Shown piece by piece: positions 9,026 through 26,923 of a DNA stretch of 26,965 nt (position 1 is the first letter of the stretch; each line of letters opens with the position of its first letter). The notes under the pieces were generated by a model. It made no database searches. It saw only the letters and a program-made list of their open reading frames with translations, and was not told where the DNA came from. The stretch spans positions 1 through 26,965 of the IMG/VR virus record IMGVR_UViG_3300024264_002661; one strand, given 5' to 3'. The position numbers and the translations under genes were made by a program. Origin of the DNA: a virus.

Positions 9026-9107
9026 ATCATTTAAATTTGTGAGTGCCTAAGCTACTCGGGTTAAAAAAAATTATCGCTCTGAGGTCGATCTCCTTTATTA
9101 TAATTAG

Positions 9108-9179
<72 letters not shown>

Positions 9180-10498: not shown

Positions 10499-11788
10499 TC
10501 AAATAGAGGCATTTCCTTTTATACCTGTCCATGCTTTTCCTTTGCCGTTCAAGTATTTTTTTACATCCCTTTTCCATGCTTCACCTCTCATAAAGTACCT
10601 TTTAGCCATATTGTTGTTGTGAATCAATATATCCTTCATGTCGTATAACATATTGGCTAACTGGTTATTGCTACGGGAATTGATATACTTCATATTATCT
10701 ATTACTATTCTAAAAGCTGCTTGTGCATTATGGCTTTCATCATAACCTTCATCCCAAAACTCACCAAAAGTTTTGTATCCAAATTCCTTTCTTAAGTCTC
10801 TTAAATAAAACCTATTACCTAAAGCCATGAATGGTCTAAAAGCAAGTATAGGTTTGGTAATTTTTTCAGTAAAAAAGTTAATATTTTTGAATAGGTTATT
10901 TGCAACTATACCTCTGTGGTGAAATGTCTCGTTAACTATGTCAACAGCTATAGATTTATATAATTCAGGTTCTGGAATTATCCACCAAGGGTCGTAGTAG
11001 TAATCATCAGTTTTTCTAGGTAGGTTAAATAAAGGTAGTACGTTTTTATGTATATGTCTAACTGTGGTTAGTTCTTCATCAGTAATTAAAAGGTTGTGGT
11101 TACGTAAAAATTCTGCTTCCGATTTACCGTGGTGGTTGTTTATTATTTCTCTATAAGTCCAACCCTGGTCCATAAACTTTTTTATAACCTCTTTATCTAA
11201 CTTTATATATTCATTATTAAATGAATAGTAAGTATTATCTAAAAGGTTAGTTTTAAGTAGCTGATCTAGAAATAGTAGTCTACTAACTCTACATTTTCCA
11301 GCAAGTATTAAAAAGGCTTTATCAATTTTTATATCATCTAAAAAATATTCTTTGGTATAGGTTGTCTTTAACTTTTCTTCTGCATCGTGTACGTTTGAAT
11401 GTACTTTAGTCCAGTTCATACAAAAATTATATGATGCACTTACACTTCTTATTAGAGTTATAAAATTTGGTACTGTTCTTAAATATGGTTCTATATAATT
11501 TTCTTGACCATACCCTTGGTATAGAATAAATACGTGATTGTTAAGTTTGTTGTCCTTACGATATTGTGTGATAGTTTCAATTAAAGGATTTCTTTGGTAG
11601 TCATCACATTCCCCTTCTTCCAATATTAGTATACCAACATCAGGATTCTTTCTTAAGTACGTTACTTCTTCTAAGCTGCCAAATTTTATTACGTACTCCT
11701 TGGTGTAGTAAAGATGGATTGAAGCATAGTGTTCGTAAGGTAATCTAAATATTACAAACTCTCTACCTCGGTAGTTCCATCTTTCCAT
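10499..11788 (-). CDS. Uncharacterised protein, paralogue B of tandem pair (possible glycosyltransferase)
   Basis: This 429-aa protein is related along its whole length to the gene at 9217. It begins MERWNYRGREFVIFRLPYEH. Landmarks are NPDVGILILEEGE (48-60), LNNHVFILYQGYGQE (82-96), ILAGKCRVSRLLFLDQLLKT (161-180), TEKITKPILAFRPFMALGN (307-325), YKTFGEFWDEGYD (338-350) and MLYDMKDILIHNN. The tail is GKAWTGIKGNASI. No signal peptide or membrane segment is seen. Its start overlaps the epimerase gene by 37 bases. A sugar-related role fits the neighbouring epimerase and carbohydrate-cluster protein, but no catalytic residue can be assigned. Confidence 0.8.
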   Translation of the reverse strand: MERWNYRGREFVIFRLPYEHYASIHLYYTKEYVIKFGSLEEVTYLRKNPDVGILILEEGECDDYQRNPLIETITQYRKDNKLNNHVFILYQGYGQENYIEPYLRTVPNFITLIRSVSASYNFCMNWTKVHSNVHDAEEKLKTTYTKEYFLDDIKIDKAFLILAGKCRVSRLLFLDQLLKTNLLDNTYYSFNNEYIKLDKEVIKKFMDQGWTYREIINNHHGKSEAEFLRNHNLLITDEELTTVRHIHKNVLPLFNLPRKTDDYYYDPWWIIPEPELYKSIAVDIVNETFHHRGIVANNLFKNINFFTEKITKPILAFRPFMALGNRFYLRDLRKEFGYKTFGEFWDEGYDESHNAQAAFRIVIDNMKYINSRSNNQLANMLYDMKDILIHNNNMAKRYFMRGEAWKRDVKKYLNGKGKAWTGIKGNASI

Positions 11789-12699
11789 TTAGTTCCAATT
11801 TTTGATTTCCAATGGTCAATAGTTCTATCTAAACCTTCGTTCATAGTTACTTTAGGAGACCAACCTAGTTTACTGGTTATTTTTTGATTTGTAGAATTTA
11901 ACAACCATATTTCTCCTGGTCTTTCTGGTTTGGTGTCCCAGTTTACTTTGCCATCCCAACCTAATTTATTTGCTATAATAGTAACATAGTCTTCAATTCT
12001 TATAGCATTATCTGGTCCTAAACAAAATATTTCTCCTACTACTTTCTCTGGATTTCTTATTACTTCTTCCCAAGCATCTAATAGGTCATCAATGTAAATA
12101 AAATTTCTATAAGGAGTACCGTACCCTAAGTTAATTTCATCTTTATTTTGTATCATTTGAGTAATAATCTGTTCAGTAACGAAGAAATCATTATCTTTAC
12201 GTCCATAAGCATTAGTTTGTCTTATAGCTGTAAATGGAAGTCCGTAACTTCTATGTGCATACTCTAAATACTTTTCACAGGCATACTTTGCTACAGCATA
12301 TGGTGCGTTAGGATTAGGAGGAGTCTGTTCGTTGAAAGCAACTATACCTTTATTGGTACCATCTTTGATTAAATCAGAAATAGGTTGCCATCCGTATACT
12401 TCCATAGTAGAAGCAAAAACGAAATTTTTAAGGTTTTTTAATCTTTTAGCAGTTTCTATCAAGTTAACCGTTCCAGTGTAATTAACTTCTGAAAAAGTAA
12501 TTTGTTCGTAAAAACTTTGTTCAACTTCTGTACGAGCAGCTAAGTGAACTATGATCTCAGGATCAGCATCCAGTATTTCGTCAGCTACTTCTTTATGGTC
12601 TCTCAAATCATTTTGAAGCAAAATAAGCTCATGTTCAGATAGTCTTTTTCTTAGGTGACTACCTATAAAACCTTGCCATCCTGTAATAAAAATTCTCAT
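11752..12699 (-). CDS. NAD-dependent sugar-nucleotide epimerase/dehydratase
   Basis: It is a 315-aa extended short-chain dehydrogenase. The Rossmann NAD motif is GWQGFIGSHL (7-16). HLAARTEVEQS supplies the second cofactor strand, FASTMEVYG contains the catalytic Ser/Thr region, and YAVAKYACEKY has the Tyr-x-x-x-Lys pair. NPNAPYAVAK and the C-terminal GWSPKVTMNEGLDRTIDHWK are typical of UDP-glucose 4-epimerase and GDP- or dTDP-sugar dehydratase-type enzymes. The exact sugar cannot be told. It overlaps the fused oxygenase gene by 4 bases (ATGA) and the paralogue B gene by 37. Mannose-phosphate enzymes encoded at 22373-23436 could supply an upstream precursor, which is inference. Confidence 0.9.
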   Translation of the reverse strand: MRIFITGWQGFIGSHLRKRLSEHELILLQNDLRDHKEVADEILDADPEIIVHLAARTEVEQSFYEQITFSEVNYTGTVNLIETAKRLKNLKNFVFASTMEVYGWQPISDLIKDGTNKGIVAFNEQTPPNPNAPYAVAKYACEKYLEYAHRSYGLPFTAIRQTNAYGRKDNDFFVTEQIITQMIQNKDEINLGYGTPYRNFIYIDDLLDAWEEVIRNPEKVVGEIFCLGPDNAIRIEDYVTIIANKLGWDGKVNWDTKPERPGEIWLLNSTNQKITSKLGWSPKVTMNEGLDRTIDHWKSKIGTKWKDGTTEVESL

Positions 12700-13829
12700 A
12701 TCTTATATCCTAATGTTATGTTTGGGTCTGGGTTATCATTAATGTATTCAAGTATTCTTTCTATTTTTTGAATATCTTCTTTTGTTTTGACAAAATTTAA
12801 TTCATTAGCAAAATGTAATTCAACATTATTGTCAACTGCTAATTCTAAAAGTTCTAATCTTCTTTCTTTATCATCCGGTAGACTGTAAATAGAACATAGA
12901 ACTATTCCTTGTATTCCTAAGCCTGTAATAAATTTTTCTAAACCTGGTAGCCAGTTACAGTACTCACTTTCAAACTGGTAATCGTTAATCTTAATGTCAA
13001 ATTTGTTACAATAGGAATCTATTATACCACGTTGCATAGGTAGGGGTATTGGATCAGAAAATTTAGTATTCCATCCAGCATAACTAACCCATGTTTTAGA
13101 TGTATCTACTTCAATACTAGATTCCCTTTCTCCTAAAAACCTGAAGTATCCTCCAGGAAGTTTTCTATGGTAGTGGCCTCCTTTTGGGAGTATCCTACCG
13201 TCCATAGACCATCTGGTTATTTCAGTAGTATTATTAAAGTTGCCGTGTATGTGTTCTTGTTGAAATAAGTATGTTTCACCAGGTGTAAGTGTAATTGGTT
13301 TTGAATACTTACCACATTCACTTTGTATTTTATCGTAGGACCATTTATTTATATAGGTATTTTTAGTTATGGAACGACTATCGTCATATGAGGCGACATA
13401 CATACTGTTTGTATCGTAAACCTCAGTAAAAGGGGTCCAAATTGTTCTTAAACCTAATCCATTGCCAACCCATATACCTTGATGAAAAGCAAGTAATCTT
13501 CCTGTTGATGCTTGATCTGGGATTACTATTCTAATTGTAAAATACCTTTGTATCATCCATTCATCAAACCCTATGTAGTTATCTACTATATCTTTAAAGT
13601 ATGAATCCACTCTATTAGAAAATTCGTCTGAACCACAAAAAGATTGACAGTATCTACCTAATATACTAATTTCGGATGCTGATAATGTTTTGTGAACAGT
13701 TTCAAGACTCTCAATTTGAGGGTACTTTTCTTGGGCAATCTTTAACCAGTATTCAGGCCAATTGTGTTTACTAAGATCATATCTTACTTTTTTTCGATCT
13801 GTTTTAGGGGATAATGCTTGATGGTCCAT
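12696..13829 (-). CDS. Fusion: 2OG-Fe(II) oxygenase plus sporadic carbohydrate cluster (LIC12192-like) domain
   Basis: The protein is 377 aa. The first two thirds look like the 2OG-Fe(II) oxygenase found in sporadic carbohydrate clusters: IRIVIPDQASTGRLLAFHQG, GLGLRTIWTPFTEVYD, a TLTPGETYLFQQEHIHGN distal His strand, then RWSMDGRIL with the 2OG-binding Arg. The last third (about 260-365) has IPLPMQRGIIDSYCN, GIQGIVLCSIYSLPDD, ELHFANELNFVKTKEDI and IERIL. These match the TIGR04323/LIC12192-type proteins that usually occur as a separate gene in the same clusters. Role: probable modification step for an unusual surface sugar. It is preceded by a 29-base gap after the sulfotransferase-like gene's start side and followed by the epimerase with an ATGA overlap. 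Confidence 0.75.
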   Translation of the reverse strand: MDHQALSPKTDRKKVRYDLSKHNWPEYWLKIAQEKYPQIESLETVHKTLSASEISILGRYCQSFCGSDEFSNRVDSYFKDIVDNYIGFDEWMIQRYFTIRIVIPDQASTGRLLAFHQGIWVGNGLGLRTIWTPFTEVYDTNSMYVASYDDSRSITKNTYINKWSYDKIQSECGKYSKPITLTPGETYLFQQEHIHGNFNNTTEITRWSMDGRILPKGGHYHRKLPGGYFRFLGERESSIEVDTSKTWVSYAGWNTKFSDPIPLPMQRGIIDSYCNKFDIKINDYQFESEYCNWLPGLEKFITGLGIQGIVLCSIYSLPDDKERRLELLELAVDNNVELHFANELNFVKTKEDIQKIERILEYINDNPDPNITLGYKI

Positions 13830-14452: not shown

Positions 14453-15555
14453 AATAAATTACCGGGTATATGAACAAGCTCACTAATTACCTTATCTAAA
14501 GGACTCTCCAATTTAGGAGATAGATCAGACCAGACTTCAGAGTCAGAATAATTTTCTATATGATCCTGGGTTATTGGAAGAGTGTTTTTTATAACTTTAC
14601 CAATAGGTATTGGAGTGTATAGGTATTTTTCCAATCCATATCCATCACACCAATCTGTAAACTGTGACTTATGGTAAACTTCTTTAACATCACCAAAGTA
14701 TATCTTTAAACTACCGTTTATATGGTCTAAGTTAGTAACATCAAACTCTAAAGGATTGTCAAAATCAGCAAAACAAAATTCGTAATCTTTACCTGCAATA
14801 GACTTACCTAAAAATACATCATAATCGTAAAAATTATTCGGAATAGATTGTCTTACTTCATCATCAGTCAGTCTATTACAATAAAAAAAACTATGTTCAC
14901 CACTTTCTGTATAGTTATCCCATTCAAGTTGTAAGTAGCCGTTATCAAAATTAGTCTCTTTTACTAGGTTTGAAGCTCTTACACTTTGTTGATATTCTTC
15001 ATAATGGTGAATGTATTTATTTATTCTTTCAATTGCATTACTAAACTCATCTGATTTACCTTCTTTGATATCATATTCCGGAGTAAGTAGCTTTGCAAAA
15101 GTTATTTTATCTTGATATGAATCTTTTTTTAATTGAACTAGTGCATCTTTATGTAAAAAGTGTTGCCAGTTAGTCATGGTAGATACTGCGACTGTAAAGC
15201 ATCTATGCAAAAGGTTGGTATGGTTCCATCCCATGCCTAAAAAAGCAGTATGAGGAAACTGTTTACCAGAGATGCATGAGTTTGCATCTGCAATTGCTTT
15301 ATTGATTAAGTCTACACAATCTTGTTGGGTAAGATTTGTATATGGATCTACATAATCATCACCTTTCCTATCAGGAGCAAAACCTATTTGAGGAAAGGTA
15401 CTACCGTGTGTTGGTTTATAGTCTTTATCAAGTCCATTTCTCACATAATATGCTTTATAGTTCTTAAAAGCATTTATCCATAACTTTGCAGCTTTTGTCT
15501 GAAGTAACTTTATATGTATTTCAGCACCGTTAAAGTGTAGTTTGAGAATATCCAT
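14449..15555 (-). CDS. Unknown protein, 368 aa
   Basis: This is a complete frame coupled by TAATG to the polymerase gene and by ATGA to the sulfotransferase-like gene. Residues 95-150 hold PHTAFLGMGWNHTNLLHRCF and TNWQHFLHKDALVQL, dense in Trp and His. Residues 225-300 contain ESGEHSFFYCNRLTDDEVRQ, then YDYDVFLGKSIAGKDYEFCF and LKIYFGDVKEVYHKSQF. The C-terminus is acidic. No transmembrane segment, signal peptide or recognised catalytic motif is seen. Its place next to the polymerase might suggest replication, but the other side is sugar genes, so context does not decide. Confidence 0.75.
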   Translation of the reverse strand: MDILKLHFNGAEIHIKLLQTKAAKLWINAFKNYKAYYVRNGLDKDYKPTHGSTFPQIGFAPDRKGDDYVDPYTNLTQQDCVDLINKAIADANSCISGKQFPHTAFLGMGWNHTNLLHRCFTVAVSTMTNWQHFLHKDALVQLKKDSYQDKITFAKLLTPEYDIKEGKSDEFSNAIERINKYIHHYEEYQQSVRASNLVKETNFDNGYLQLEWDNYTESGEHSFFYCNRLTDDEVRQSIPNNFYDYDVFLGKSIAGKDYEFCFADFDNPLEFDVTNLDHINGSLKIYFGDVKEVYHKSQFTDWCDGYGLEKYLYTPIPIGKVIKNTLPITQDHIENYSDSEVWSDLSPKLESPLDKVISELVHIPGNLF

Positions 15556-17900
15556 TAGTGTCCATCTCTCCAGTTATCAGATATCTCTGGAGGAGCTTTA
15601 AGAGTAACTCCTGGAAGTTGAGTAGTAGATTCCATAATCTCTTGAACTATAGGAGCAAACATTTCAACATCTTTTTCATCACAATTAATTAACAATTGAT
15701 CATGTACTTGTGCTTGAACCTTAGCATCAATACCTAACTCTTCAGCCTTACGATTGATAGCTAAAGCTGCTCTATTTACTACAGCGGCTGCTAAAGATTG
15801 CAATTGGAAGTTAAGACAGTTATTAAGACCGTTACGATAATCTCTATAAGCTTTCATAACTTGATCTTTACCATACTGAGGTTCTAATTCTTTTCTAAAC
15901 CTCCAGTCCATCATTCTATCACCAAACTTAGCATATGTTTTCTTAACTCTAGGTAAATGACGAACACGTCCTACATAGTTTTTTACATACCCATTAGCCT
16001 TCACTTGTTCTCTAGATCTTTCTCTCCATTCCTTAAGTTGAGGAAATCCATTTAAGTAACCATCAACTAATATCTGAGCTTCTTTTTGATTAACTCCTAA
16101 AGACATACCTAATGCATAAGCCTCCATACCGTATGCAATACCAAGTGAATAAGCTTTTGCTTGATTACGTTTAACTGGATCTAATTTCTTTAAATAGTTA
16201 TCAGCAGCTTTATCAGCAGATACTCCTTCTAACTTCTCAGTTTTGATAGCTACAGTAGAATAAAAGTCCCAATTCTTTTCAAATATCTCTTGTAAACCTT
16301 TATCTCCAGATACTGAAGCAAAACAGTGAGGTTCTAATGATTCGTAATCTGCATCAATAACTTTTCTACCATTACCTGCTACTAAAAATGCTCTCACAAT
16401 ATTAATGTACTTCATTAATATAGGAGCATCTTGACCTTCTTCTAAAGGTTTAGGTAACTGTTGAGCATCAGAACCGTATCTACCAGATACAGTACCATTT
16501 TGCTTAAAGTAAAAGTAGTATCTTCCATTTTCATTTCTATCTAAAAACCTATCAACATAAGTAGATTTAACTTTCAATAGTTTATTATAAATTCTTAAGT
16601 TTTCAGCCCATGGATTATCTTTAGCTAGTTCTTCTACCATATCCATATCAAACTTAGCTCTTCCTGATTTAGTATTAGATCCTTTTACTTTAGGTTCTAT
16701 ACCCATATATTCAAATATAATCTCACCTAGATGCTTTTTAGATTGTATATTAATGTAATCACCATCGTTATACTCTCTCCACATATCTAAACATAGACGT
16801 CTAGCTTCCTTCATATCGAGATGCTCAGTATTACCTTCTAATAAAAACTGCTTTATACTCTCTTCAGTTTCGTTTATAGTTTCTAAGTCTTTAATCTTAG
16901 CCTGAGTAAGAGAGTATTTACCAGTCTTTTCTGATTTAGGTAAACCTAATGAATATCTGGATACTAATTTTTGAGCAAAATTACCTTTATGTGATATAGG
17001 AAACTTTTCCTCTGCAGTTTTCAAAACCCAAGCTTTAGCTTCAGAAGTTTTAAGTAGAGATTTCATAACAATCTCTTTATTCTTTTTTAAGTCTTCTGTA
17101 ATCTCTACGTTTATCTTGTTAAGTAAATCCATATCAAGATCTACACCCATCATCTCCATAGGAAGAGTTACCTCACGATAGATAGGCATAACTTCATCTT
17201 TGAAAAAGAAATCTTCTAATCCTTCTTCTTTAAGTTTTCCCAAGTATAGATTACATATACGTAAAGTAAGGTCGGTATCAGCAGAAGCATACTTACTGAG
17301 TATGTCCAGATCAGCTTTGTAGATTTCAAAACTTTCTTTAGTAACACTTCCTCCATTGTCTTTTATACTTTGTTTTAGTTCTATCTGCTCTTCGTTAGCA
17401 GCTTTCTCAACATCTAAACCTAATGCCTTTTGATTCATAATAGCAATAGATTTCAAACCAAATGGATTACCAAATCCAAATGCTCCTTCTTCGTATACAG
17501 TATGAACAAGAAGTCCAGTATCAACCCATATCTGACGAGATAGATCAACACCGTAGAAGTTATTAATAAACTGAACATCAAAAGATGCATTATGGAACAC
17601 AAGTTTCTTATCTTGCTCAACCATAATCTTAAATAGATTACGAGATATAGTCTCAGTAGACTTACCGTTAATCTTTTGCAACTCTAATAACCCTTTATCA
17701 AAGTTCCATACAAGAGTAGGAATATAGAAACCTACTCCTTCATCACCGGATAAAGACCATCCAACAATTTTATCTTTTCTAGGATTAAGACCAGACGTCT
17801 CAGTATCTACTGCAATAACATCTGAATCTTTAATATGTTGAAACATTAAGTCTAACGTTTCTTCATCTTGTACTGTGTAATACTTTTTTTCTAACTGCAT
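15555..17900 (-). CDS. Family A DNA polymerase with 3'-5' exonuclease
   Basis: This is the 781-aa replicative polymerase. The N-terminal DnaQ-like exonuclease has Asp32-x-Glu34 (AVDTETSGLNP), FHNASFDVQF with Asp108, and Tyr204-x3-Asp208. There is no 5'-3' exonuclease domain. Polymerase motif A is VIDADYESLEPH (Asp518, Glu523). Motif B is RNQAKAYSLGIAYG (Arg578, Lys582, Tyr590). Motif C is QVHDQLLI (His733, Asp734). The residue aligned with E. coli Phe762 is Leu586, a variant known from marine phage polymerases. The motif C residue after Asp is Gln rather than the usual Glu. The gene starts 3 bases after the stop of the small gene at 17904 and is coupled by TAATG to the 368-aa gene. Confidence 0.97.
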   Translation of the reverse strand: MQLEKKYYTVQDEETLDLMFQHIKDSDVIAVDTETSGLNPRKDKIVGWSLSGDEGVGFYIPTLVWNFDKGLLELQKINGKSTETISRNLFKIMVEQDKKLVFHNASFDVQFINNFYGVDLSRQIWVDTGLLVHTVYEEGAFGFGNPFGLKSIAIMNQKALGLDVEKAANEEQIELKQSIKDNGGSVTKESFEIYKADLDILSKYASADTDLTLRICNLYLGKLKEEGLEDFFFKDEVMPIYREVTLPMEMMGVDLDMDLLNKINVEITEDLKKNKEIVMKSLLKTSEAKAWVLKTAEEKFPISHKGNFAQKLVSRYSLGLPKSEKTGKYSLTQAKIKDLETINETEESIKQFLLEGNTEHLDMKEARRLCLDMWREYNDGDYINIQSKKHLGEIIFEYMGIEPKVKGSNTKSGRAKFDMDMVEELAKDNPWAENLRIYNKLLKVKSTYVDRFLDRNENGRYYFYFKQNGTVSGRYGSDAQQLPKPLEEGQDAPILMKYINIVRAFLVAGNGRKVIDADYESLEPHCFASVSGDKGLQEIFEKNWDFYSTVAIKTEKLEGVSADKAADNYLKKLDPVKRNQAKAYSLGIAYGMEAYALGMSLGVNQKEAQILVDGYLNGFPQLKEWRERSREQVKANGYVKNYVGRVRHLPRVKKTYAKFGDRMMDWRFRKELEPQYGKDQVMKAYRDYRNGLNNCLNFQLQSLAAAVVNRAALAINRKAEELGIDAKVQAQVHDQLLINCDEKDVEMFAPIVQEIMESTTQLPGVTLKAPPEISDNWRDGH

Positions 17901-18390: not shown

Positions 18391-18637
18391 AGAGATCGAA
18401 CTTCATAGGTTCTTCTTCAGGTATCTCTATTTCGTTTGACTCTATTATGTATAACTTACCATCTAAAGGTTCTAATCTATAGTGACCTTTAAATTTAGTT
18501 TTACGCATATACATTGTAAGAGCCATAACTAGACCTTCTATTCTATTGCCTTGGTCTATTACCAACTCCCAGTTATCACCTGGTGGTACTCTAGTTGCAA
18601 TTAGTTTCTTTTCCTCTTCTATTTGTATCTCAGCCAT
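18377..18637 (-). CDS. Small acidic protein after queF, 86 aa
   Basis: This protein is alternately charged: IQIEEEKKLIATRVPPGDNW, then a helix GLVMALTMYMRKTKFKG, a strand pair HYRLEPLDGKLYIIE and an acidic tail. No recognised family. Its ATG overlaps the queF stop (TAATG), so it is translated with QueF and may act in the same pathway, but only position supports that. Confidence 0.7.
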   Translation of the reverse strand: MAEIQIEEEKKLIATRVPPGDNWELVIDQGNRIEGLVMALTMYMRKTKFKGHYRLEPLDGKLYIIESNEIEIPEEEPMKFDLYGEY

Positions 18638-19545
18638 TACTGTCTTAAGGTTTTTCGAATTATGTATTCTGGTTTAGTAAAGAACTCAGGTATTAAACTG
18701 CTGTGAGTAGCTCTAATAGGGTTAATGTCTATACCTCCTCTACGAGTATACAAACAACTTACCATTAGTTGATCTGGTCCAAATCTCTCTGTTAGATGAG
18801 CAAATATCATCTCACATATCTCTTCATGAAAATGACTTACTGTTCTATGACTAACAATATATTTAGCTAACGAATCAGCTCCTGGTAACCTACCACCTTT
18901 CATATAAATAAATACATCACCCCAATCTGGTTGGTTGGTTACTCTACAATTAGATCTTAATAGATTAGATCTCAATTTTAACTCATCACCTTCATAATCA
19001 GCTTCTTGTAACTGATCTGCATCTGATTTAAAAGCAGTAAAGTCAATTAAATTTAAATCAACTACTTCTCCTAAATCCTCATAATCATCAGAAAAAGATA
19101 AAGGTTCAGTTTCAAATTCTGAAGCATAAAATGATACAGTAGTATTAGTTTCTAGTAACTCATCCAAATCTCTCTTTACTCTTGCTTCAATACCTGAAAT
19201 ACAATCTGCTGCATTATCACCAATCTGAGTCATATTGAAAGAGTTTAAGTATAACTTAATAGATTTAGACTCTACGTGATTCTCACTATCACTAGGACAA
19301 ACTATCTTAAGCATACCAGCAACTGGTTGACCTTTAGTAGTAATTGCTGAAACTTCATATGCGTTCCATACATCAACTCCTTTAAATTCCTTACCTGTTA
19401 GTCCATAACCTTCACGATTAAGACTTCTTGGTATTTTAACCAATAATTCAGGAGCATAAGTATCCTTATACCCTGCACCGCCAACAGTACCTAAGTGCTT
19501 GCTAGCTATTTCTACTACTTCTTGATAATTTTTTACTTCACTCAT
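18637..19545 (-). CDS. queF: NADPH-dependent 7-cyano-7-deazaguanine reductase (QueF)
   Basis: QueF reduces preQ0 to preQ1. The 302-aa chain is the bimodular E. coli type. The N-terminal half carries VESKSIKLYLNSFNMT (91-106), the family's substrate/NADPH signature. The C-terminal half carries the active site: Cys200 in LLRSNCRVTNQPDWGD (thioimide nucleophile), Asp207, His240-Glu241 in SHFHEE, and TRRGGIDINP (267-276). All match E. coli Cys190, Asp197, His229 and Glu230, so activity is expected. In this phage the likely purpose is DNA modification rather than tRNA queuosine, because a DpdA-like gene lies upstream in the same operon and FolE at 23438. It begins right after the zinc-ribbon membrane gene's stop. 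Confidence 0.94.
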   Translation of the reverse strand: MSEVKNYQEVVEIASKHLGTVGGAGYKDTYAPELLVKIPRSLNREGYGLTGKEFKGVDVWNAYEVSAITTKGQPVAGMLKIVCPSDSENHVESKSIKLYLNSFNMTQIGDNAADCISGIEARVKRDLDELLETNTTVSFYASEFETEPLSFSDDYEDLGEVVDLNLIDFTAFKSDADQLQEADYEGDELKLRSNLLRSNCRVTNQPDWGDVFIYMKGGRLPGADSLAKYIVSHRTVSHFHEEICEMIFAHLTERFGPDQLMVSCLYTRRGGIDINPIRATHSSLIPEFFTKPEYIIRKTLRQ

Positions 19546-19546
19546 A

Positions 19547-19900
19547 TTATGTATTTAAAATATAAAGGCCATAGCCGATTAAAAGGTTAAAATTTACTAT
19601 TACTATATTCCATTGCTTTGCAATCCATACTTGAGGTAATGAAAGCACTGCACCAATTAGGTATGTATATGCTCCTATATTATCATATTGAAGCAGATAA
19701 GGTGATGACATAATAAATGCTGAACCCATATAACCTAATCTATTTCCTAACCTCTCTACTGGTGTTAATCTACGTTCTTTTACTAGTGTACGTAGTATCT
19801 GTCTATACCAGTTTGTCTCACACTTTAAACAAGTCTTTTTATTCTCATGTTTAAATTTAAAGTCTTTTTTCTCAATTCCACAAACGTTACACGTTCTCAT
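19547..19900 (-). CDS. Zinc-ribbon plus membrane protein, 117 aa
   Basis: The chosen start (19898-19900) gives MRTCNVCGIEKKDFKF at the N-terminus and a 14-base overlap with the kinase-GNAT gene; upstream ATGs at 19909 and 19927 lengthen the overlap and add no recognisable feature. Cys4-x2-Cys7 and a second C-x-x-C (KKTCLKCETNWY) form a zinc ribbon. After a basic linker come hydrophobic segments, YMGSAFIMSSPYLL and AYTYLIGAVLSLPQVW, and a final NFNLLIGYGLYIL. The membrane half aligns with the 75-aa protein at 25878. LPQV recalls PQ-loop transporters only weakly. It lies between the kinase-GNAT fusion and QueF. Confidence 0.75.
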   Translation of the reverse strand: MRTCNVCGIEKKDFKFKHENKKTCLKCETNWYRQILRTLVKERRLTPVERLGNRLGYMGSAFIMSSPYLLQYDNIGAYTYLIGAVLSLPQVWIAKQWNIVIVNFNLLIGYGLYILNT

Positions 19901-20843
19901 AATATCCATATGTATAAGTTGAACCATCTACATCAGTAGTTTCTTCAGTAAAGGTAACACCATTTCGTTTATAGAACTCCATAGCTTCCGGATTAGACCA
20001 TAATGTAACTTTACCATACTTTAGTTTTAACGAACTAAAAACTCTGCTACCTAATCCTTTACCTTTATGTGAAGTAGTAAATCTACTTAAATGTACTGAA
20101 CCATCAGAATTCTGTCTAACGAAAGCAGTACCTATTCCAAAATCCATAGAGTACTCAGTTTGCAAAATTTTACAATCATCTCTTTCTTCATAACCTTCTT
20201 TCACCCAGTATCTAATAGCATCTTTTAAATACGTTATATACTCTGTATTAAATGTAGCAGCATAATCAAAGACAGTTGATAAATCTACTTGATCTAATTG
20301 AACTGGTAATGCTAATTTAGGTCCTATAACATTTCTAAATTTATCTGCTCTTTCTTTTACACTACCTGTAAGTTCTATTAATTTAACCTCTAACTCTCTA
20401 GTATACTTTTCAAATAAAGCTACTATTTCATCTCTAAACTTTTCATTAGAACTTCTAACTCCATCATCTTCAATAGGTATTTCAGGAGGTAAATAGAAAA
20501 TATAATCATAACGAGGAAGTACTTCTTTAGCAACTCCTAAGGCATAATCCATTATCCATTGATCTACTTTACCTTGATCATATAACCATTTAGTATAAAC
20601 TAATGCATCTAAAGCACATCTATCTGAAATAAAATGCTTTTTCATAATATTTTCAGCATGTATAGTAATAGTAAAAATCTGAGACATATTACTGCCCTCT
20701 TCATTTATATTAATACCTTTTGCAGCAATCTGACGAGTTAGTTCATCTATAAATTCAAAACCATAAAGATCGTTAGATCTTTTTAACGCCTTTAGTAAAG
20801 TACTTTTACCAGTAGATTGAGCTCCAGTTATTGCTATCTTCAT
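19887..20843 (-). CDS. NadR-like P-loop kinase fused to GNAT acetyltransferase
   Basis: The protein is 318 aa. Residues 1-175 are a NadR/AAA_28-type nucleoside kinase-like domain: Walker A GAQSTGKSTL (7-16), FIDELTRQIA, ISDRCALDALVYTKWL and YDYIFYLPPEIPIEDDGVR. Residues about 215-318 form a GNAT domain: IGTAFVRQNSDGSVHLSRF, the acetyl-CoA loop SHKGKGLGSRVF and NPEAMEFYKRNGVTF. It lies between DpdA (ATGA overlap) and the membrane protein before QueF. The GNAT could act on an amine such as the aminomethyl of preQ1; the kinase substrate is unknown. NAD metabolism (ribosylnicotinamide kinase) is an alternative that could feed NADPH-using QueF. Confidence 0.82.
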   Translation of the reverse strand: MKIAITGAQSTGKSTLLKALKRSNDLYGFEFIDELTRQIAAKGININEEGSNMSQIFTITIHAENIMKKHFISDRCALDALVYTKWLYDQGKVDQWIMDYALGVAKEVLPRYDYIFYLPPEIPIEDDGVRSSNEKFRDEIVALFEKYTRELEVKLIELTGSVKERADKFRNVIGPKLALPVQLDQVDLSTVFDYAATFNTEYITYLKDAIRYWVKEGYEERDDCKILQTEYSMDFGIGTAFVRQNSDGSVHLSRFTTSHKGKGLGSRVFSSLKLKYGKVTLWSNPEAMEFYKRNGVTFTEETTDVDGSTYTYGYYENV

Positions 20844-21673
20844 ATTTTATCAAATATAGTTTCTAAATTATTTTTACCAGAAACAAATCCTCTAAACTTG
20901 TCTATATTATCCAATATAAGATTTAAATCTAACTTCTCCAAAGGATAATCGATAAGTTCATGTAATTTTTGAGACTCTTTTGACCATAGTCCCTCTGGTT
21001 GATATTCTATTTGTTTGATCCCATGGACCACTGGATTACTAGTATCCAAACTATAAATAAAATTATAATCAGCATGTCTATAAAAACTAAATTCTTGAGG
21101 TAAACCACAACCTAATAAATGATGAGGCTTATCTTTATTAATTGTACCGTCTTTAAGTAAATCTCCTAGTAGCTTAACACGTCCCAACATCCAGCTAACA
21201 TACTTGTTAGGATGAGGAACTGACTTCGTATAATACGAATAGTCGAATGAAATTGCAATCATATCTACTTTTGCGATTTCGTCCATTGCTCTATAACAAT
21301 CCCTAATTTCTTCATAGGTTTTACCTTGAACAACTCCTATACTCTTACCCGGTACAATATCACCATATTTCTTAAACCAGTCTGCAGCTTGTTGCATAGT
21401 CTTTTCGGCATTCTCTAAAGCATCTGGTACTATATACCATGTAGGTTTTAATCTTTCTACCCACATTGCAAATCTATCAGCTTCAAAAGATTCTTCTAAC
21501 TCAAATATAGAATTATCTAAAATAACTTCCCTACCTCTTTTAACTGCTCCTTCAAATACGTCTCTATACCTAAAACTTTCTTCAAGTAAATGTACTAAAG
21601 CATAATCGTAATCTGTACGACTTTGAACTTCGTTAAAAATGTCTATAGGTGCTTCGTGTGCTATTTTAATCAT
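20840..21673 (-). CDS. DpdA-like DNA guanine transglycosylase (TGT superfamily)
   Basis: DpdA enzymes exchange guanine in DNA for a 7-deazaguanine base. The 277-aa protein follows the phage DpdA pattern, a minimal TGT barrel: EVILDNSIFELEES (49-62, candidate nucleophile Asp53), YIVPDALENAEKT (80-92), SIGVVQGKTYEEIRDCY (111-127), HHLLGCGLPQEF (184-195) and YSLDTSNPVVHGI (207-219, candidate Asp210). The zinc-binding C-terminus of tRNA TGT is absent, as in phage DpdA. It overlaps the kinase-GNAT gene by 4 bases. The presence of QueF and FolE nearby supports a preQ1-type base in the phage DNA. The substrate (DNA rather than tRNA) is inferred from family resemblance and context. Confidence 0.82.
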   Translation of the reverse strand: MIKIAHEAPIDIFNEVQSRTDYDYALVHLLEESFRYRDVFEGAVKRGREVILDNSIFELEESFEADRFAMWVERLKPTWYIVPDALENAEKTMQQAADWFKKYGDIVPGKSIGVVQGKTYEEIRDCYRAMDEIAKVDMIAISFDYSYYTKSVPHPNKYVSWMLGRVKLLGDLLKDGTINKDKPHHLLGCGLPQEFSFYRHADYNFIYSLDTSNPVVHGIKQIEYQPEGLWSKESQKLHELIDYPLEKLDLNLILDNIDKFRGFVSGKNNLETIFDKI

Positions 21674-21845
21674 TCTTGAATAAATCTTTTACGCTTTTAT
21701 CATAATCTTTAAATGCTGAATTTACTAAAGTTGAAATCTCATCAAATCTTTGAGTATAGGTTTCAGCAATGTACTTTTCAACAACTTCCAATGGAAGATG
21801 TTTTACTCCATCTACCTCTATAATATGTTCTTCTAACTTAATCAT
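21666..21845 (-). CDS. Small protein upstream of dpdA, 59 aa
   Basis: ATG at 21843-21845 to TAA at 21666-21668. The product is MIKLEEHIIEVDGVKHLPLE followed by a helix with VVEKYIAETYTQRF, then DEISTLVNSAFKDYDKS and VKDLFKND. It fills the otherwise empty 164-base space between the MazG-like gene and dpdA, overlapping the first by 8 bases and the second by 8 bases. That fit argues that it is real although it is short. The fold looks like a beta hairpin plus helices; no family recognised. It could be a DpdA accessory protein, supported only by position. Confidence 0.72.
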   Translation of the reverse strand: MIKLEEHIIEVDGVKHLPLEVVEKYIAETYTQRFDEISTLVNSAFKDYDKSVKDLFKND

Positions 21846-22368
21846 TGAAAAACTGTTTAAGGTTAGGTCTAAAGTAATTTACAGACTTTACTACTTTTTT
21901 ATCTCGTTCTCTGTAGACAATATATCTTCCTTCCGCAAGTTTCTCAAAATAGCAGGCCTCACCGTACTCCTCAGTTCTTTTGCGGACAGTTTCCATGGCT
22001 TCTTTTTCAGTTTTACAAGCCTTAGACATATTACTCGCTTGTACCTCTTGATATGCGGGCCATATCTTATCCTTAAGGCCATGTAACATAGTACCGTTCC
22101 CAAGGGAAACATAAGTAATATCACACAAAGCATCCAAAACTTCCACAATATCCCCTCTTTCGCAAGCTTCTCTATATTCTTCGAGTTCTTCAAGGATGAA
22201 ATCATAGACAAACTGCCACTCTTTCTTTTCTGGGATAACTGGTTCATAATTGTTTGGTTTACCAAATGTTTGATTAAAATCTTCTACTTCAGAAACAAAC
22301 GGTACGTAGTCGTTAACCCATACGTTATCTGCTTCTTCAGGGAATAATGTTAGTTGTTTTCCTTTCAT
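21838..22368 (-). CDS. MazG/PRA-PH-like nucleotide pyrophosphohydrolase
   Basis: This 176-aa protein belongs to the all-alpha NTP pyrophosphohydrolase group. FILEELEEYREACERGDIVE (58-77) and the following VLDALCDITYVSLGNGTMLHG contain the E-x-x-E-x12-28-E-x-x-D metal-binding signature. AYQEVQASNMSK (105-116) is characteristic of phosphoribosyl-ATP pyrophosphohydrolase-like phage proteins. The C-terminal RYIVYRERDKKVVKSVNYF is a small added strand region. The family hydrolyses (d)NTPs to monophosphates, cleaning nucleotide pools or removing non-canonical bases. Its neighbours are dpdA and phosphomannomutase genes. Which nucleotide it acts on is unknown. The frame at 21891-22265 is a shadow of this gene. 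Confidence 0.78.
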   Translation of the reverse strand: MKGKQLTLFPEEADNVWVNDYVPFVSEVEDFNQTFGKPNNYEPVIPEKKEWQFVYDFILEELEEYREACERGDIVEVLDALCDITYVSLGNGTMLHGLKDKIWPAYQEVQASNMSKACKTEKEAMETVRKRTEEYGEACYFEKLAEGRYIVYRERDKKVVKSVNYFRPNLKQFFND

Positions 22369-22372
22369 AATA

Positions 22373-23092
22373 TTATATTATACCTTCTGTTATTATTGAA
22401 TATAGTAAATCTCTCGTATCTTTCCAACTTTCTACATGATGAAATGTATTGCCAGTTAATTTTTTTCTAATTGTAGCTTCTTTAACAGCATAGTCATTAC
22501 CACCTGGAAATAGGTTATCACCAAAGAAGGTGAAATTGTCGCCATTTAAATCATCTAATATCTGACCTTTATCGGCTCCTTTTTCGTGAATGTCTATACT
22601 TATTTCTCCTCCTATAGATGCATCTAACCAACTATACCTTCCACATATTTCCTCAGCAAATGCTTTTCTTTCTTGATGTTTTTGGTCCCATTTATAGTAT
22701 TCATTTCTTTGTTCCTGAGTACAATTTCTACCAACAACAGAAAAATTAACTAAGCCAATTCTTTTTTCTATATGGTTACCAAACCTATGAGGGTATTCAG
22801 ATTTATCTAACATTATATTAAGTAAAGTGTCTAAATAATCTGTGCCTGACCATTCTGATTGTCTAACTACCTTACCTTCCATCCAAAGTTGATTACCACA
22901 GCTTTGATAAACTCTATCAGCAGCTAACCAAGCATCTTCACCTAACTGTTCAACTGACTTATCTTTATCACTTCCTGTAACTAACCAAACTTTATTGTGA
23001 TTACAAAAATTTAAGAAATCTTCTTTGAATTTAGGGTCAATAGGATTTCTGGAAGGAGTTAAAGTGCCGTCAATATCAAAAATGTATATCAT
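22373..23092 (-). CDS. HAD-type phosphomannomutase (eukaryotic PMM-like)
   Basis: The 239-aa protein starts MIYIFDIDGTLTPSRNPI with the HAD nucleophile Asp6 and acid/base Asp8. VWLVTGSDKDKSVEQLG, FGNHIEKRIGLVNFSVVGR, GGEISIDIHEKGADKGQIL and FFGDNLFPGGNDY follow in the order found in eukaryotic-type PMM. That enzyme interconverts mannose-6-phosphate and mannose-1-phosphate. It overlaps the cupin gene by 4 bases (ATGA). Taken together they could turn fructose-6-phosphate into mannose-1-phosphate, a GDP-mannose precursor. No GDP-mannose pyrophosphorylase is seen in the window. Confidence 0.88.
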   Translation of the reverse strand: MIYIFDIDGTLTPSRNPIDPKFKEDFLNFCNHNKVWLVTGSDKDKSVEQLGEDAWLAADRVYQSCGNQLWMEGKVVRQSEWSGTDYLDTLLNIMLDKSEYPHRFGNHIEKRIGLVNFSVVGRNCTQEQRNEYYKWDQKHQERKAFAEEICGRYSWLDASIGGEISIDIHEKGADKGQILDDLNGDNFTFFGDNLFPGGNDYAVKEATIRKKLTGNTFHHVESWKDTRDLLYSIITEGII

Positions 23093-23436
23093 ACTCTTTC
23101 GTAATCGTCTTCTATTCTAACTATATCATCTTCTCCAAAGTACGTTCCGGTCTGTACTTCTATAAATTGAGCTAATTCCATGGTATCGTTATATGCTCTA
23201 TGTTTAGCTCCTTGAGGAATATTAATTGATTCACCAGGTTGTAAATCGTATAGAATATCTTCACGAACTACTGATAATCTACCTTTTGTACAGGTCCAAA
23301 CTTCTGCTCTTTTATGGTGATATTGGTAAGATAATCTACCGCCAGGAGCCACAGTAATTCTTTTAACTTTAGTATGTTCTGAGTCTAGTAGTACTTCATA
23401 TATACCCCATGGTCTGCTTTCTGCTTCGTATTTCAT
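23089..23436 (-). CDS. Cupin of the mannose-6-phosphate isomerase type II family
   Basis: It is a 115-aa single-domain cupin matching the C-terminal isomerase part of type II PMI/GMP enzymes: ESRPWGIYEVLLDSEHTKVK, VAPGGRLSYQYHHKRAEVW (cupin motif 1 with His ligands), LQPGESINIPQGAKHRAYN (motif 2 with His) and FIEVQTGTYFGEDDIVRIED. The nucleotidyltransferase half is missing, so only isomerisation of fructose-6-phosphate to mannose-6-phosphate is expected. It is one base after folE's stop and overlaps phosphomannomutase by 4 bases. A sugar-binding regulatory cupin is a less likely alternative. Confidence 0.87.
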   Translation of the reverse strand: MKYEAESRPWGIYEVLLDSEHTKVKRITVAPGGRLSYQYHHKRAEVWTCTKGRLSVVREDILYDLQPGESINIPQGAKHRAYNDTMELAQFIEVQTGTYFGEDDIVRIEDDYERV

Positions 23437-23437
23437 A

Positions 23438-24151
23438 TTAATGCTTACAGATACTTGCTAATTCTATATTCTTATAAAACTCTGCTTTAGCAGAATCTTC
23501 ATCAAGGAAAGCTCCAGTTAACTTAGCTGTCTGCATAGAAGCTCCTCCATGCTTTACTCCTCTACATGATACACAGTTATGAGTAGCATTAATTTGAACT
23601 GCTACACCTAAATTACCTTCACATATCTTATCTACTGCATTATGAATAGCTACAGTTAATTGCTCTTGTATAGCTCCTCTTCTTCCGAATTGCTCTACTA
23701 TTCTATTCAGTTTAGACAATCCTACAACCTTTCCAGACTCTGAAGCAATATAGGCTATGCTAACAGTCCCACCAATTGTCTGGTGATGGTGACTACACAT
23801 TGACGTTACTGGTATATTAGACTCTTGTACGATTCCGTCGTAGCCGTCGCTAGGGAATGCTGTAACTCGGTCTAAAGGTTCAAATCGACCTTTCCATAGA
23901 TCATTAACGTATGCTTTAGCTACTCGCATTGGAGTATCAGAAGAGTTGGGATCGTTTTCCCAGTCAGTTCCAAGAGCGGTTAAGAAGTCACCAAATGCTG
24001 TTGCTGCATTAGTAATAATCTCTTGTTTTTCTTCTGATGTTAACCTTGCTTCAGGTCCTTCAGTTTCTTGTTTCTTTGCTAATTGACTTGATATACCGTT
24101 AGCAAAACCGGCTTGAACTAATTCTGTTCCTTCTATAAACTTTTTAGGCAT
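23438..24151 (-). CDS. folE: GTP cyclohydrolase I (FolE)
   Basis: FolE converts GTP to 7,8-dihydroneopterin triphosphate, the first step of folate and 7-deazaguanine synthesis. The 237-aa chain has an extended N-terminus. Zinc ligands are Cys119 and His122 in VTSMCSHHHQTIGG, and Cys193 in THNCVSCRGVKH. VVGLSKLNRIVEQFGRR (142-158) and IQEQLTVAIHNAV are the conserved core. HHHQTIGG replaces the more usual HHLLPFxG, a departure worth noting near the active site. Given QueF and DpdA in the window, DNA base modification is the likely use. QueD, QueE and QueC are not in this window and would come from elsewhere in the genome or the host. Confidence 0.95.
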   Translation of the reverse strand: MPKKFIEGTELVQAGFANGISSQLAKKQETEGPEARLTSEEKQEIITNAATAFGDFLTALGTDWENDPNSSDTPMRVAKAYVNDLWKGRFEPLDRVTAFPSDGYDGIVQESNIPVTSMCSHHHQTIGGTVSIAYIASESGKVVGLSKLNRIVEQFGRRGAIQEQLTVAIHNAVDKICEGNLGVAVQINATHNCVSCRGVKHGGASMQTAKLTGAFLDEDSAKAEFYKNIELASICKH

Positions 24152-24208: not shown

Positions 24209-24935
24209 ATTTTTTATTCAAACTATCAACATATTTTTGATGTTTCTTTCTTCTTTCATACTGGTGGTAAATATGGTAATCATCGATATTAAAATTATCG
24301 TCTAAATTACCCATATGTAGTACATATCTTCCTTGACTAGTCCAACGAAATCTATATTTAGTATAAAGTAACAAATTAAATGTTGATTGGTCAAGACCAG
24401 AAGTAACGTCTTGTATGTTTTTAAAACTACTACTTAAACCTGTAGAGTAAAAATCACCAAAAAATTCTTTTAATATGTATCCCTTTCCTATTACTACACC
24501 AGCACAAAAAGGAAGTTTATCTTTAAGTTTGTTGTAGTATTCTGGATATCCTTTTTGTATTGTCTTCCGATTCCATTCGTGGTTTTCAAAAGTAAGTCTA
24601 GTGTCTAACTGCACATAGAAATCAACTTTAATATCGGAAGGTGATTTTGCAAAGTAAACATCTCTCATATCGGCACAACAAATGTACTCATCCTGCAAAT
24701 TGCACTCTACAATAATGTCAGAAAATTCCTTTCTTCTTTGAAAGTTAATATGGTATTTTGGTTTAGGGTAAGTAAGAACTTCCCACCCTTGTTTTTCTAA
24801 ATAACTTACTATAGATTTTTCCGGATTATAATACGCTACTATTTTTCTACCGTCAAAACCAGTTTTATTAAGTGAATCTACAAAGTTATATATTACATCC
24901 TTAGTGTAATTGGTAAATGCAGTTAGTACTGTCAT
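24198..24935 (-). CDS. Glycosyltransferase-like protein (DxRDVxF type)
   Basis: This is a 245-aa protein with an N-terminal Rossmann-like half: MTVLTAFTNYTKDVIYNFVD and GFDGRKIVAYYNPE. EYICCADMRDVYFAKSP (83-99) is a D-x-R-D-V-x-F motif that binds metal and sugar nucleotide in several bacterial glycosyltransferase families. PFCAGVVIGKGYIL and SGLDQSTFNLLLY resemble the acceptor-side helix of those families, and YHIYHQYERRKKHQKY ends the chain. Substrate unknown. Its start overlaps the phosphoribosyltransferase gene by 4 bases (ATGA). It is followed by the palindromic element and folE. Confidence 0.6.
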   Translation of the reverse strand: MTVLTAFTNYTKDVIYNFVDSLNKTGFDGRKIVAYYNPEKSIVSYLEKQGWEVLTYPKPKYHINFQRRKEFSDIIVECNLQDEYICCADMRDVYFAKSPSDIKVDFYVQLDTRLTFENHEWNRKTIQKGYPEYYNKLKDKLPFCAGVVIGKGYILKEFFGDFYSTGLSSSFKNIQDVTSGLDQSTFNLLLYTKYRFRWTSQGRYVLHMGNLDDNFNIDDYHIYHQYERRKKHQKYVDSLNKKSYI

Positions 24936-25348
24936 TTTATTAGGTAATCTTGAACAGGAATACTATCTAATGATTCCCAAGGAAAAACTAACCAACGGTC
25001 ATCACTAATTATTTCACCAGTAAGTCTGGGTAGCGTTTTAGTACCTATTCTTGCACAAAGACTAGAAGTAATAAATCCTAACTTATCAGCTTCTTCCATA
25101 GTAACTCCAGTATCTGATATATCGTCTATTACTATTGTTTTTCTTTTTAGTTCTGACGGAAGCATTTTTGCAGATGAATAACTAATATATTTTATACCGA
25201 AGGCATGTGACATCATAACTGCAGGTATTAAACCTCCTCTAGGTATGCCCGATACAAACTCTAGATCCAAACCTTCAAGTCTATCACCTATAATATTGAT
25301 CTGTTCATCAACCCATTTCCAACTTAAATATAACTTATTTTTTTCCAT
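24932..25348 (-). CDS. Purine-type phosphoribosyltransferase
   Basis: It is a 138-aa type I PRTase. FVSGIPRGGLIPAVMMSHAF (31-50) is the N-terminal PPi-loop region, and TIVIDDISDTGVTMEEA (71-87) is the PRPP-binding motif with Asp75-Asp76 and Thr80-Gly-Val-Thr. The short length and PRGGLIPA resemble xanthine/hypoxanthine-guanine PRTases of bacteria and archaea rather than APRT. It would convert a free purine plus PRPP to the nucleoside monophosphate. Base exchange by a DpdA enzyme releases guanine, so guanine salvage is a plausible use, inferred only from co-occurrence. It overlaps the glycosyltransferase-like gene by 4 bases and shares position 25348 with the kinase gene (TAATG). Confidence 0.85.
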   Translation of the reverse strand: MEKNKLYLSWKWVDEQINIIGDRLEGLDLEFVSGIPRGGLIPAVMMSHAFGIKYISYSSAKMLPSELKRKTIVIDDISDTGVTMEEADKLGFITSSLCARIGTKTLPRLTGEIISDDRWLVFPWESLDSIPVQDYLIK

Positions 25349-25881: not shown

Positions 25882-26105
25882 TGAGTAAAGATGCTATATA
25901 AGTAACCACATATACCTACTACATTAAGTAGAGATAGATTATAAGATTTAGTTCTTTGAGTTTGAACTGTTAGTAGTGCTAATCCTACTGCAGATAGCAG
26001 TTTACCGATTAAAAAATTAACGAAAAATGGTCCGATCATAAGAGATGCGGTACCGATGTAGATTACAAATATCTTGTAAAGTAGTTCTTTTGTTTCTGTT
26101 TTCAT
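25878..26105 (-). CDS. Small membrane protein, 75 aa (paralogue of the protein at 19547)
   Basis: There are two to three hydrophobic segments: YIGTASLMIGPFFVNFLIG, LLSAVGLALLTVQTQ and LLNVVGICGYLYSIFTQ, separated by a short basic loop (QRTKSYN). No signal peptide. The Tyr-x-Gly-x-Ala start, the Met-x-x-Pro step and the Gln, Lys, Asn and Gly-Tyr residues of the last segments match the membrane half of the 117-aa zinc-ribbon protein at 19547-19900 at the same spacing (one gap). It overlaps the kinase gene by 4 bases (ATGA) and the S1/P1 nuclease gene by 4. Function unknown. Confidence 0.72.
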   Translation of the reverse strand: MKTETKELLYKIFVIYIGTASLMIGPFFVNFLIGKLLSAVGLALLTVQTQRTKSYNLSLLNVVGICGYLYSIFTQ

Positions 26106-26923
26106 TCGAATATTTCATTTATTAAGTTACCTAATCTTACTCCTGCATAATATAACCGTTTTTCTAATACCGGTTGGTATTTGTAAACATAATCGTATGA
26201 TAGATACGAACCATCTGGTGTATTCTTATAGATGTCTCTAGCCCACCAGTGTGATTCGAAAGTCCACTCTAATACATTAGTCTGTTTTACTTCTTTTCTA
26301 CCGTATTTATTCTGTAAATGAGTACTCCACTCAGTATATGACATTTTAAAATCATCTATTAAGTTAGTATCCCATAGAACATGTAAATTCGTTTTATTAT
26401 CAGATCCTTTTCTACCTTTGAACGTAATGTAAATTTTTGAGCCTCCATAATCTTCATATCTACCTGTATGCATCGGTTGATGAATATCACCTACTAAGTG
26501 AACTAAATACTTAAGGTAGAATTTTTTCATTTCCTTATCTGATGAAGGTGATTTAAGTATAGCAACACATCTTTCGATTATAGTCACTACATTTTCTTCT
26601 GGTGTATCTGCATCTGGATATTCTACATCTAATGGCAGGTTTACGTAGTGCCATTTATCATAAGGTCTCCAATTAGGATTGCTTCTCATCTCATCTGCCC
26701 AAGTGCTAACTGATGCTAACGATTCTCCATCTAAAATATCGTATATAACTTTTTTTACATCTTCAGTTAATTGTCTTTCTGCAACTTCACCTACTATTCT
26801 GTGTCCTGTTTTACCCCATTCTCCATCGGCTGCTCTAGCAGGTGCTGGTATAAGTAAAAAGAATATTGTCATTAATATAATAAAACCTATCCCTAACCAA
26901 TCTGCAAACTCTAATTTTTTCAT
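26102..26923 (-). CDS. Secreted S1/P1-family nuclease
   Basis: This is a 273-aa zinc-dependent single-strand nuclease. Residues 13-31 form a signal peptide core (GFIILMTIFFLLIPAPARA), so the product should leave the cytoplasm. Trizinc ligands are visible: Trp36 and His41 in GEWGKTGHRIVGEVA, Asp77 in STWADEM, His92 in KWHYVNLPLD, His142/Asp146/His152 in VHLVGDIHQPMHTG, and His181/Asp185 in LHVLWDTNLID. The family cleaves single-stranded DNA and RNA. In P1 the Trp is the mature N-terminus; here predicted cleavage after Ala31 leaves four extra residues before it. Phage-encoded members are unusual. The gene starts immediately after the stop of the gene at the window's end. Confidence 0.92.
   Translation of the reverse strand: MKKLEFADWLGIGFIILMTIFFLLIPAPARAADGEWGKTGHRIVGEVAERQLTEDVKKVIYDILDGESLASVSTWADEMRSNPNWRPYDKWHYVNLPLDVEYPDADTPEENVVTIIERCVAILKSPSSDKEMKKFYLKYLVHLVGDIHQPMHTGRYEDYGGSKIYITFKGRKGSDNKTNLHVLWDTNLIDDFKMSYTEWSTHLQNKYGRKEVKQTNVLEWTFESHWWARDIYKNTPDGSYLSYDYVYKYQPVLEKRLYYAGVRLGNLINEIFE

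Follow-up and report, generated by a model that had tools for sequence, protein, structure and literature searches.

The IMG/VR virus record IMGVR_UViG_3300024264_002661, analysed over its entire length of 26,965 bases (hereafter, the window), carries a cassette of genes for 7-deazaguanine modification of DNA, in which a gene fusing a kinase to a GNAT acyltransferase domain lies between dpdA and queF. The window is probably a piece of a bigger phage genome, and its phage is related to Flavobacterium phage immuto (vB_FspM_immuto_2-6A, MW353175). The cassette genes are all on the minus strand (Table 1) and succeed each other, in the order of transcription, as folE, a cupin/mannose-6-phosphate isomerase-like gene, a phosphomannomutase-like HAD gene, a MazG-like gene, dpdA, the kinase-GNAT fusion gene, the gene of a small zinc-ribbon membrane protein, queF, a pair of small genes and the gene for a family A DNA polymerase. 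Protein families come from Pfam, PHROGs and NCBIfam searches, and 80 related IMG/VR loci were compared with the window; a sister contig of 31 kb, L003, is collinear with it. A wider search retrieved more than 500 IMG/VR matches encoding the DpdA type of the window, indicating that the system is common in this viral collection, and a census of the slot between dpdA and queF covered 133 non-identical DpdA loci.

Table 1. Features of the cassette in the window and of the corresponding slot in two related loci.
Feature	Coordinates	Strand	Details
Family A DNA polymerase	15555..17900	-	PF00476, 208 bits; downstream of queF; kept in the syntenic block
QueF, bimodular NADPH-dependent preQ0 reductase	18637..19545	-	302 aa; Pfam QueF_N 100.8 bits, QueF 61.1 bits
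Small putative zinc-ribbon membrane protein	19547..19927	-	Between the fusion gene and queF
Kinase-GNAT fusion	19887..20843	-	Nucleotide/nucleoside kinase domain (residues 1-176) and GNAT acyltransferase domain (177-318); start overlaps the dpdA stop
DpdA, putative DNA-guanine transglycosylase	20840..21673	-	277 aa
MazG/PRA-PH-like nucleotide pyrophosphohydrolase	21838..22368	-	Pfam PF01503, 41.9 bits; beside dpdA in most relatives
FolE, GTP cyclohydrolase I	23438..24151	-	237 aa; Pfam PF01227 (GTP_cyclohydroI), 142 bits; PHROG 2197
Purine phosphoribosyltransferase-like protein	24932..25348	-	NCBIfam PRK09177, 37 bits, under the cut-off; PHROG 8995
FkbH-GNAT with glyoxalase-fold partner and GIY-YIG-like endonuclease, in place of the formyltransferase	L065:4897-7422; L074:6146-8812		

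A preliminary description of this DNA had identified FolE, QueF and a DpdA-like homologue of tRNA-guanine transglycosylase (TGT), and the three genes lie where it had put them, on the minus strand, intact and with their active-site residues conserved. The zinc-site cysteines and histidines of FolE are seen in its translation (CSHHH and CVSC). QueF aligns over its full length with the Vibrio cholerae QueF 3bp1 (2.5e-47), and its catalytic residues (Cys200, Asp207 and the His240-Glu241 pair), already described as intact, are invariant, together with the signature ESKSxKLY, among 13 phage QueFs, some from a divergent clade of about 38% identity. The NADPH-binding motif of QueF is defined as E(S/L)K(S/A)hK(L/Y)(Y/F/W), and the window sequence has the form ESKSIKLY; the archaeal amidinotransferase is not known to have the ESKSxKLY signature. 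The score of 234 bits against TIGR03138 is under the 293-bit equivalog cut-off of this model, which is an annotation threshold rather than a biochemical trait, and the name QueF rests on the residues and the full-length homology. The divergent clade, with unchanged catalytic residues, stands in for the usual QueF at L074:9385-10293, L028:7016-7924 and L053:9057-9971.

DpdA has no match in Pfam, including none to its TGT family, and matches the TGT model TIGR00449 weakly (1.8e-4, 20.5 bits against a cut-off of 47.6); it is also much shorter than the Escherichia coli Tgt (277 against 375 aa), setting it far from the tRNA enzymes. A profile of 29 DpdAs matched no PDB sequence, and the relation to TGT emerged from the fold search only: all 50 PDB matches listed by Foldseek for the AlphaFold model (predicted local distance difference test, pLDDT, of 87.5) are tRNA-guanine transglycosylases, and the modelled fold is a TGT-like TIM barrel. 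A set of 35 sequences, that of Campylobacter phage CP220 among them, shows no variation at residues D53, D84, Q116 and D210; Q116 falls on the QG motif of TGT in hhalign, and D53, D84 and D210 are matched to TGT aspartates through their motifs alone. The protein shares 70% identity with the annotated immuto DpdA and 43%, over 87% of its length, with the CP220 enzyme, and it groups in the same subfamily as both; the Campylobacter enzyme reportedly defines DpdA3, a subfamily in which guanine would be expected to be replaced completely. The relatives of DpdA that were found are phage proteins, and in immuto and most relatives its gene is linked to those of preQ0 (7-cyano-7-deazaguanine) synthesis, namely queD, queE, folE and queC. 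We infer that DpdA acts on DNA in this phage. In CP220, dpdA is annotated as hypothetical (L085:8995-9771) and is followed by a gene of the same kinase family (9813-10355), with queF not nearby.

The genes queC, queD and queE were not found within the window, as the preliminary description had noted, most likely because of the edge of the fragment, since the window is itself a whole record. Beyond the corresponding edge they are present in relatives: queC was found in all 12 long relatives tested, queD and queE lie upstream of folE in most of the related loci reaching that far, and L003 contains a partial queE about 5 kb past the position matching the right end of the window. In the annotation of immuto, the nearest isolate, queC, queD, queE, folE, dpdA and queF form one block. 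Since the relatives share the gene order and carry queD, queE and queC past the edge of the window, the pathway is probably complete in the whole genome. With these steps encoded elsewhere, the cassette almost certainly serves a 7-deazaguanine modification of DNA, and it very likely reaches the level of preQ1 (7-aminomethyl-7-deazaguanine), in line with what had been proposed.

Any step following preQ1 may depend on the gene located between dpdA and queF. The kinase half of the fusion protein matches PF13521 (78.8 bits) and has the NadR/deoxynucleoside kinase fold (Z of 15-18), and it is of a different type from the kinase of the relatives (31-37% identity; 37% to that of immuto). The C-terminal domain, of about 142 residues, scores 20.6 bits with Acetyltransf_10 when searched alone (cut-off 23.6), and the same domain of the L003 orthologue exceeds the Pfam threshold in three GNAT models. 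A profile of the two sequences matched nine PDB entries at E<1, all acetyltransferases. In the AlphaFold model of this half, helices and strands follow one another as in GNAT, at low confidence (pLDDT of about 60), and the fold-search matches listed for the fusion cover the kinase half only. Between the window and L003, the ratio of nonsynonymous to synonymous substitution rates of the domain is 0.22 (0.06 to 0.12 in the neighbouring genes), which indicates purifying selection. A single-sequence search with the window domain gave no match and the search with the two-sequence profile found L003 only, so the kinase-GNAT fusion looks rare. Another open reading frame of the window, at 2548-3078, seemed GNAT-like by eye and was dropped for want of Pfam support.

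In immuto and the other relatives forming the clade of the window, 70 of the 75 loci with a readable slot encode a PurN-like formyltransferase (matching PF00551, Formyl_trans_N) after dpdA, followed by the kinase. All five loci of this clade devoid of it have a GNAT in the slot, and no GNAT was found in the formyltransferase loci of the clade. The PF00551 domain is single-copy in eight of eight long relatives, and none was detected in the window, in the whole 31-kb contig of L003 or in the contigs of the other three formyltransferase-less loci (L065, L073 and L074). In these three, the slot holds a GIY-YIG-like endonuclease, a protein of 508 aa uniting an FkbH domain (151 bits, above the cut-off) with a C-terminal GNAT (44 bits), a glyoxalase-fold protein, a third type of kinase and the divergent QueF. 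A distant lineage (L110, L145, L157 and L167) has dpdA and the kinase separated by a stand-alone GNAT of about 181 aa, and no PF00551 domain was found in the 184.5-kb contig of L145. Independent REPLACEMENTS are seen in L065, L073 and L074 (FkbH-GNAT) and in the lineage of L110, L145, L157 and L167 (stand-alone GNAT).

Over the 133 non-identical loci, the slot census gave 62 with the formyltransferase, four with GNAT alone, two with FkbH-GNAT, two with kinase-GNAT, 63 with neither and none with both. The mutual exclusion of formyltransferase and GNAT has a Fisher p of 0.0017 over 80 clusters, a value that ignores relatedness and is a guide only. In the DpdA trees, the three GNAT types occupy three places, with kinase-GNAT and FkbH-GNAT each nested among formyltransferase lineages, and every cluster of the window's own clade has its slot filled. 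A relocated formyltransferase was sought and not found in the five contigs of the clade without one or in the 184.5-kb contig, although for the fragments (the window and L003) the gene may lie elsewhere in the genome. A kinase of the family described above adjoins nearly every DpdA examined, including those of Campylobacter phages without queF at that locus, the exceptions being L152, L153 and L163.

This pattern of GNAT and formyltransferase in one slot suggests that the amine of preQ1 undergoes an additional acylation, a step that we favour somewhat on sequence grounds. In the proposed mechanism, FolE, with QueD, QueE and QueC encoded outside the fragment, would convert GTP to preQ0, QueF would reduce preQ0 to preQ1, and DpdA would exchange DNA guanine for the 7-deazaguanine base. 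Either before or after this insertion, the primary amine of preQ1 would receive an acyl group from the GNAT domain, acetyl taken from acetyl-CoA being the likeliest; both this target and the acyl group moved are deduced from the gene context. The domain would do the same job as the formyltransferase of most close relatives, which would give a formyl cap. The FkbH type could deliver a glyceryl-like group, a speculation drawn from the roles of FkbH in polyketide pathways, and the kinase and the phosphoribosyltransferase near folE could recycle the guanine released by DpdA via GMP and GDP to GTP. The predicted product is an N-acylated, probably N-acetyl, form of dPreQ1 (the deoxynucleoside of preQ1). 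The preliminary description, which ended at plain dPreQ1, therefore probably stopped one step short, given the GNAT domain fused to the kinase in a slot where nearly all close relatives have a formyltransferase. Taken as a whole, a guanine-replacing cassette with GNAT capping of preQ1 is the best explanation, to which we give slightly more than even weight.

The cassette resembles that of immuto in its order (folE, MazG, dpdA, kinase, queF and polA, then groES and groEL further on) and in sequence (70% identity in DpdA, 61.5% in QueF and 64%, over the full length, in the DNA polymerase). It differs in the slot between dpdA and queF: in immuto, a PurN-like formyltransferase and a TmpK-like kinase are encoded by separate genes, against a single protein joining another kinase to GNAT in the window. 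Eight 7-deazaguanine bases are reportedly known in phage DNA, and work by Cui et al. in 2023 reportedly described formylaminomethyl and methylaminomethyl forms, a formyltransferase named DpdN and a DpdA3 subfamily. Compared with DpdN and its reported product, formylated dPreQ1 (fdPreQ1), the GNAT would have the same slot and the same proposed job, acylating the aminomethyl group of preQ1; unlike DpdN, a formyl-tetrahydrofolate enzyme adding formyl, it would have a GNAT fold using acyl-CoA, with acetyl as the predicted group. In the literature searched, which did not take in Cui et al. 2023, no description of a GNAT in a DpdA cassette was found and fdPreQ1 is not named.

The presence of dPreQ0, dPreQ1, dADG (deoxy-7-amido-7-deazaguanosine) and dG+ (deoxyarchaeosine) in phage DNA, as well as the resulting protection from restriction, has been shown (Hutinet et al., 2019, PMC6884629). 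As in phages Dp-1 and HVTV-1, where a QueF or QueF-L-like protein and preQ0 genes lead to dPreQ1 in DNA (PMC6884629), the window combines QueF with this pathway; in contrast, no GNAT step has been described in those phages, the DpdA of Dp-1 is of the 9g type, and HVTV-1 lacks a DpdA of its own. A GNAT-fold enzyme acylating a phage DNA base has precedents in Mom of phage Mu and other GNATs acting on DNA bases (PMC7824862), although the target of Mom is adenine and the one proposed here is the side-chain amine of a 7-deazaguanine. In addition, DNA modification has been suggested as the role of a GNAT in Aeromonas phage PX29 (PMC8056088). The preQ1-type modification is well supported and of an already known kind, while the GNAT in the formyltransferase slot is probably the new part, making this a probable new version of a known system.

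Several observations weigh against GNAT capping of preQ1. The window GNAT domain is under the Pfam cut-offs, the model of this half is of low confidence, and the fusion occurs in two contigs only; the window and L003 being fragments, a formyltransferase could possibly be encoded elsewhere in the genome. The action of the formyltransferase on dPreQ1 is itself taken from what Cui et al. reportedly found in 2023. Moreover, about half of the DpdA loci have dpdA, kinase and queF with neither enzyme, which makes plain dPreQ1 a viable end state, and GNATs are common in phages, where many modify proteins (PMC7824862). Plain dPreQ1 could then be the end product, the GNAT domain having another role, for instance on a host protein or on a nucleotide bound by the fused kinase, and in Streptococcus phage Dp-1 a QueF and a DNA transglycosylase do lead to dPreQ1 (PMC6884629). 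This is a serious contender, but we consider it the less likely outcome, as it leaves unexplained both the three unrelated GNAT types in the formyltransferase slot, never together with a formyltransferase, and the absence of an empty slot in the window's own clade.

Other end points appear much less plausible. Sequence does not readily separate QueF from the amidinotransferase QueF-L (Hutinet et al., PMC6884629), and the Campylobacter phages, the closest experimentally studied relatives for DpdA, have been reported with dADG (PMC6884629), so that the base could be deoxyarchaeosine or stop at preQ0 or ADG. We regard this as improbable: the window QueF is bimodular, has ESKSxKLY and all the catalytic residues and aligns throughout with the V. 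cholerae QueF, queF is not beside dpdA in the Campylobacter locus, and the measured phages with QueF-L-like proteins had dPreQ1 (PMC6884629). Still less probable is a cassette boosting queuosine in host tRNA through a transglycosylase acting on tRNA. The queuosine pathway does include FolE and QueF (PMC6884629), but a tRNA-directed TGT was rejected because of the length, the low TGT scores and the gene context of DpdA, whose relatives found are phage proteins, and phages of this class have been shown to modify their own DNA (PMC6884629).

Extending GNAT capping to the whole group leads to a more tentative proposal, which we hold at a little short of even: the lineage of the window would have DNA with N-acetyl or N-acyl 7-aminomethyl-7-deazaguanine made by the kinase-GNAT protein, and the slot would be a site for swapping capping enzymes (formyltransferase, kinase-GNAT, FkbH-GNAT and free GNAT), yielding several undescribed bases, among them one with a glyceryl or similar acyl group made by the FkbH type. 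If true, more DNA bases would be predictable from sequence alone, with concrete masses to look for, and host defences would seem to drive diversity at the 7-position of guanine. The calculated [M+H]+ values are 296.135 for dPreQ1 and 324.130, 338.146 and 384.151 for its formyl, acetyl and glyceryl derivatives, the formyl one being predicted for immuto.

Around the slot, GIY-YIG-like homing endonucleases, named by eye, lie directly downstream of dpdA in L010, L055, L065, L074, L079 and L081, and may help the exchange of its genes. Genes resembling, by eye, staphylococcal nuclease or DNA/RNA non-specific endonuclease occupy the gap between kinase and queF in L005, L033, L048, L020, L021, L041 and L044, and the window has an S1/P1 nuclease at 26102-26923; nucleases beside a DNA-protection cassette would fit the breakdown of host DNA. 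The zinc-ribbon membrane protein was assigned to no family in the Pfam search and has homologues in L003, L004, L006, L007 and L010, some of which are formyltransferase relatives. The phosphoribosyltransferase-like gene is near folE in most relatives.

Elsewhere in the window, a cluster of the S-adenosylmethionine cycle (3380-5315) encodes MetK, a methylthioadenosine/S-adenosylhomocysteine nucleosidase-like protein and an adenine phosphoribosyltransferase, of which L003 lacks MetK and retains the other two. A single tRNA-Met gene (9107-9179) lies between an Hsp20 gene and a region (11752-13829) that contains, near long unknown genes, an NAD-dependent epimerase and a 2-oxoglutarate-Fe(II) oxygenase of the sporadic carbohydrate cluster type, which suggests a glycan-modifying block.

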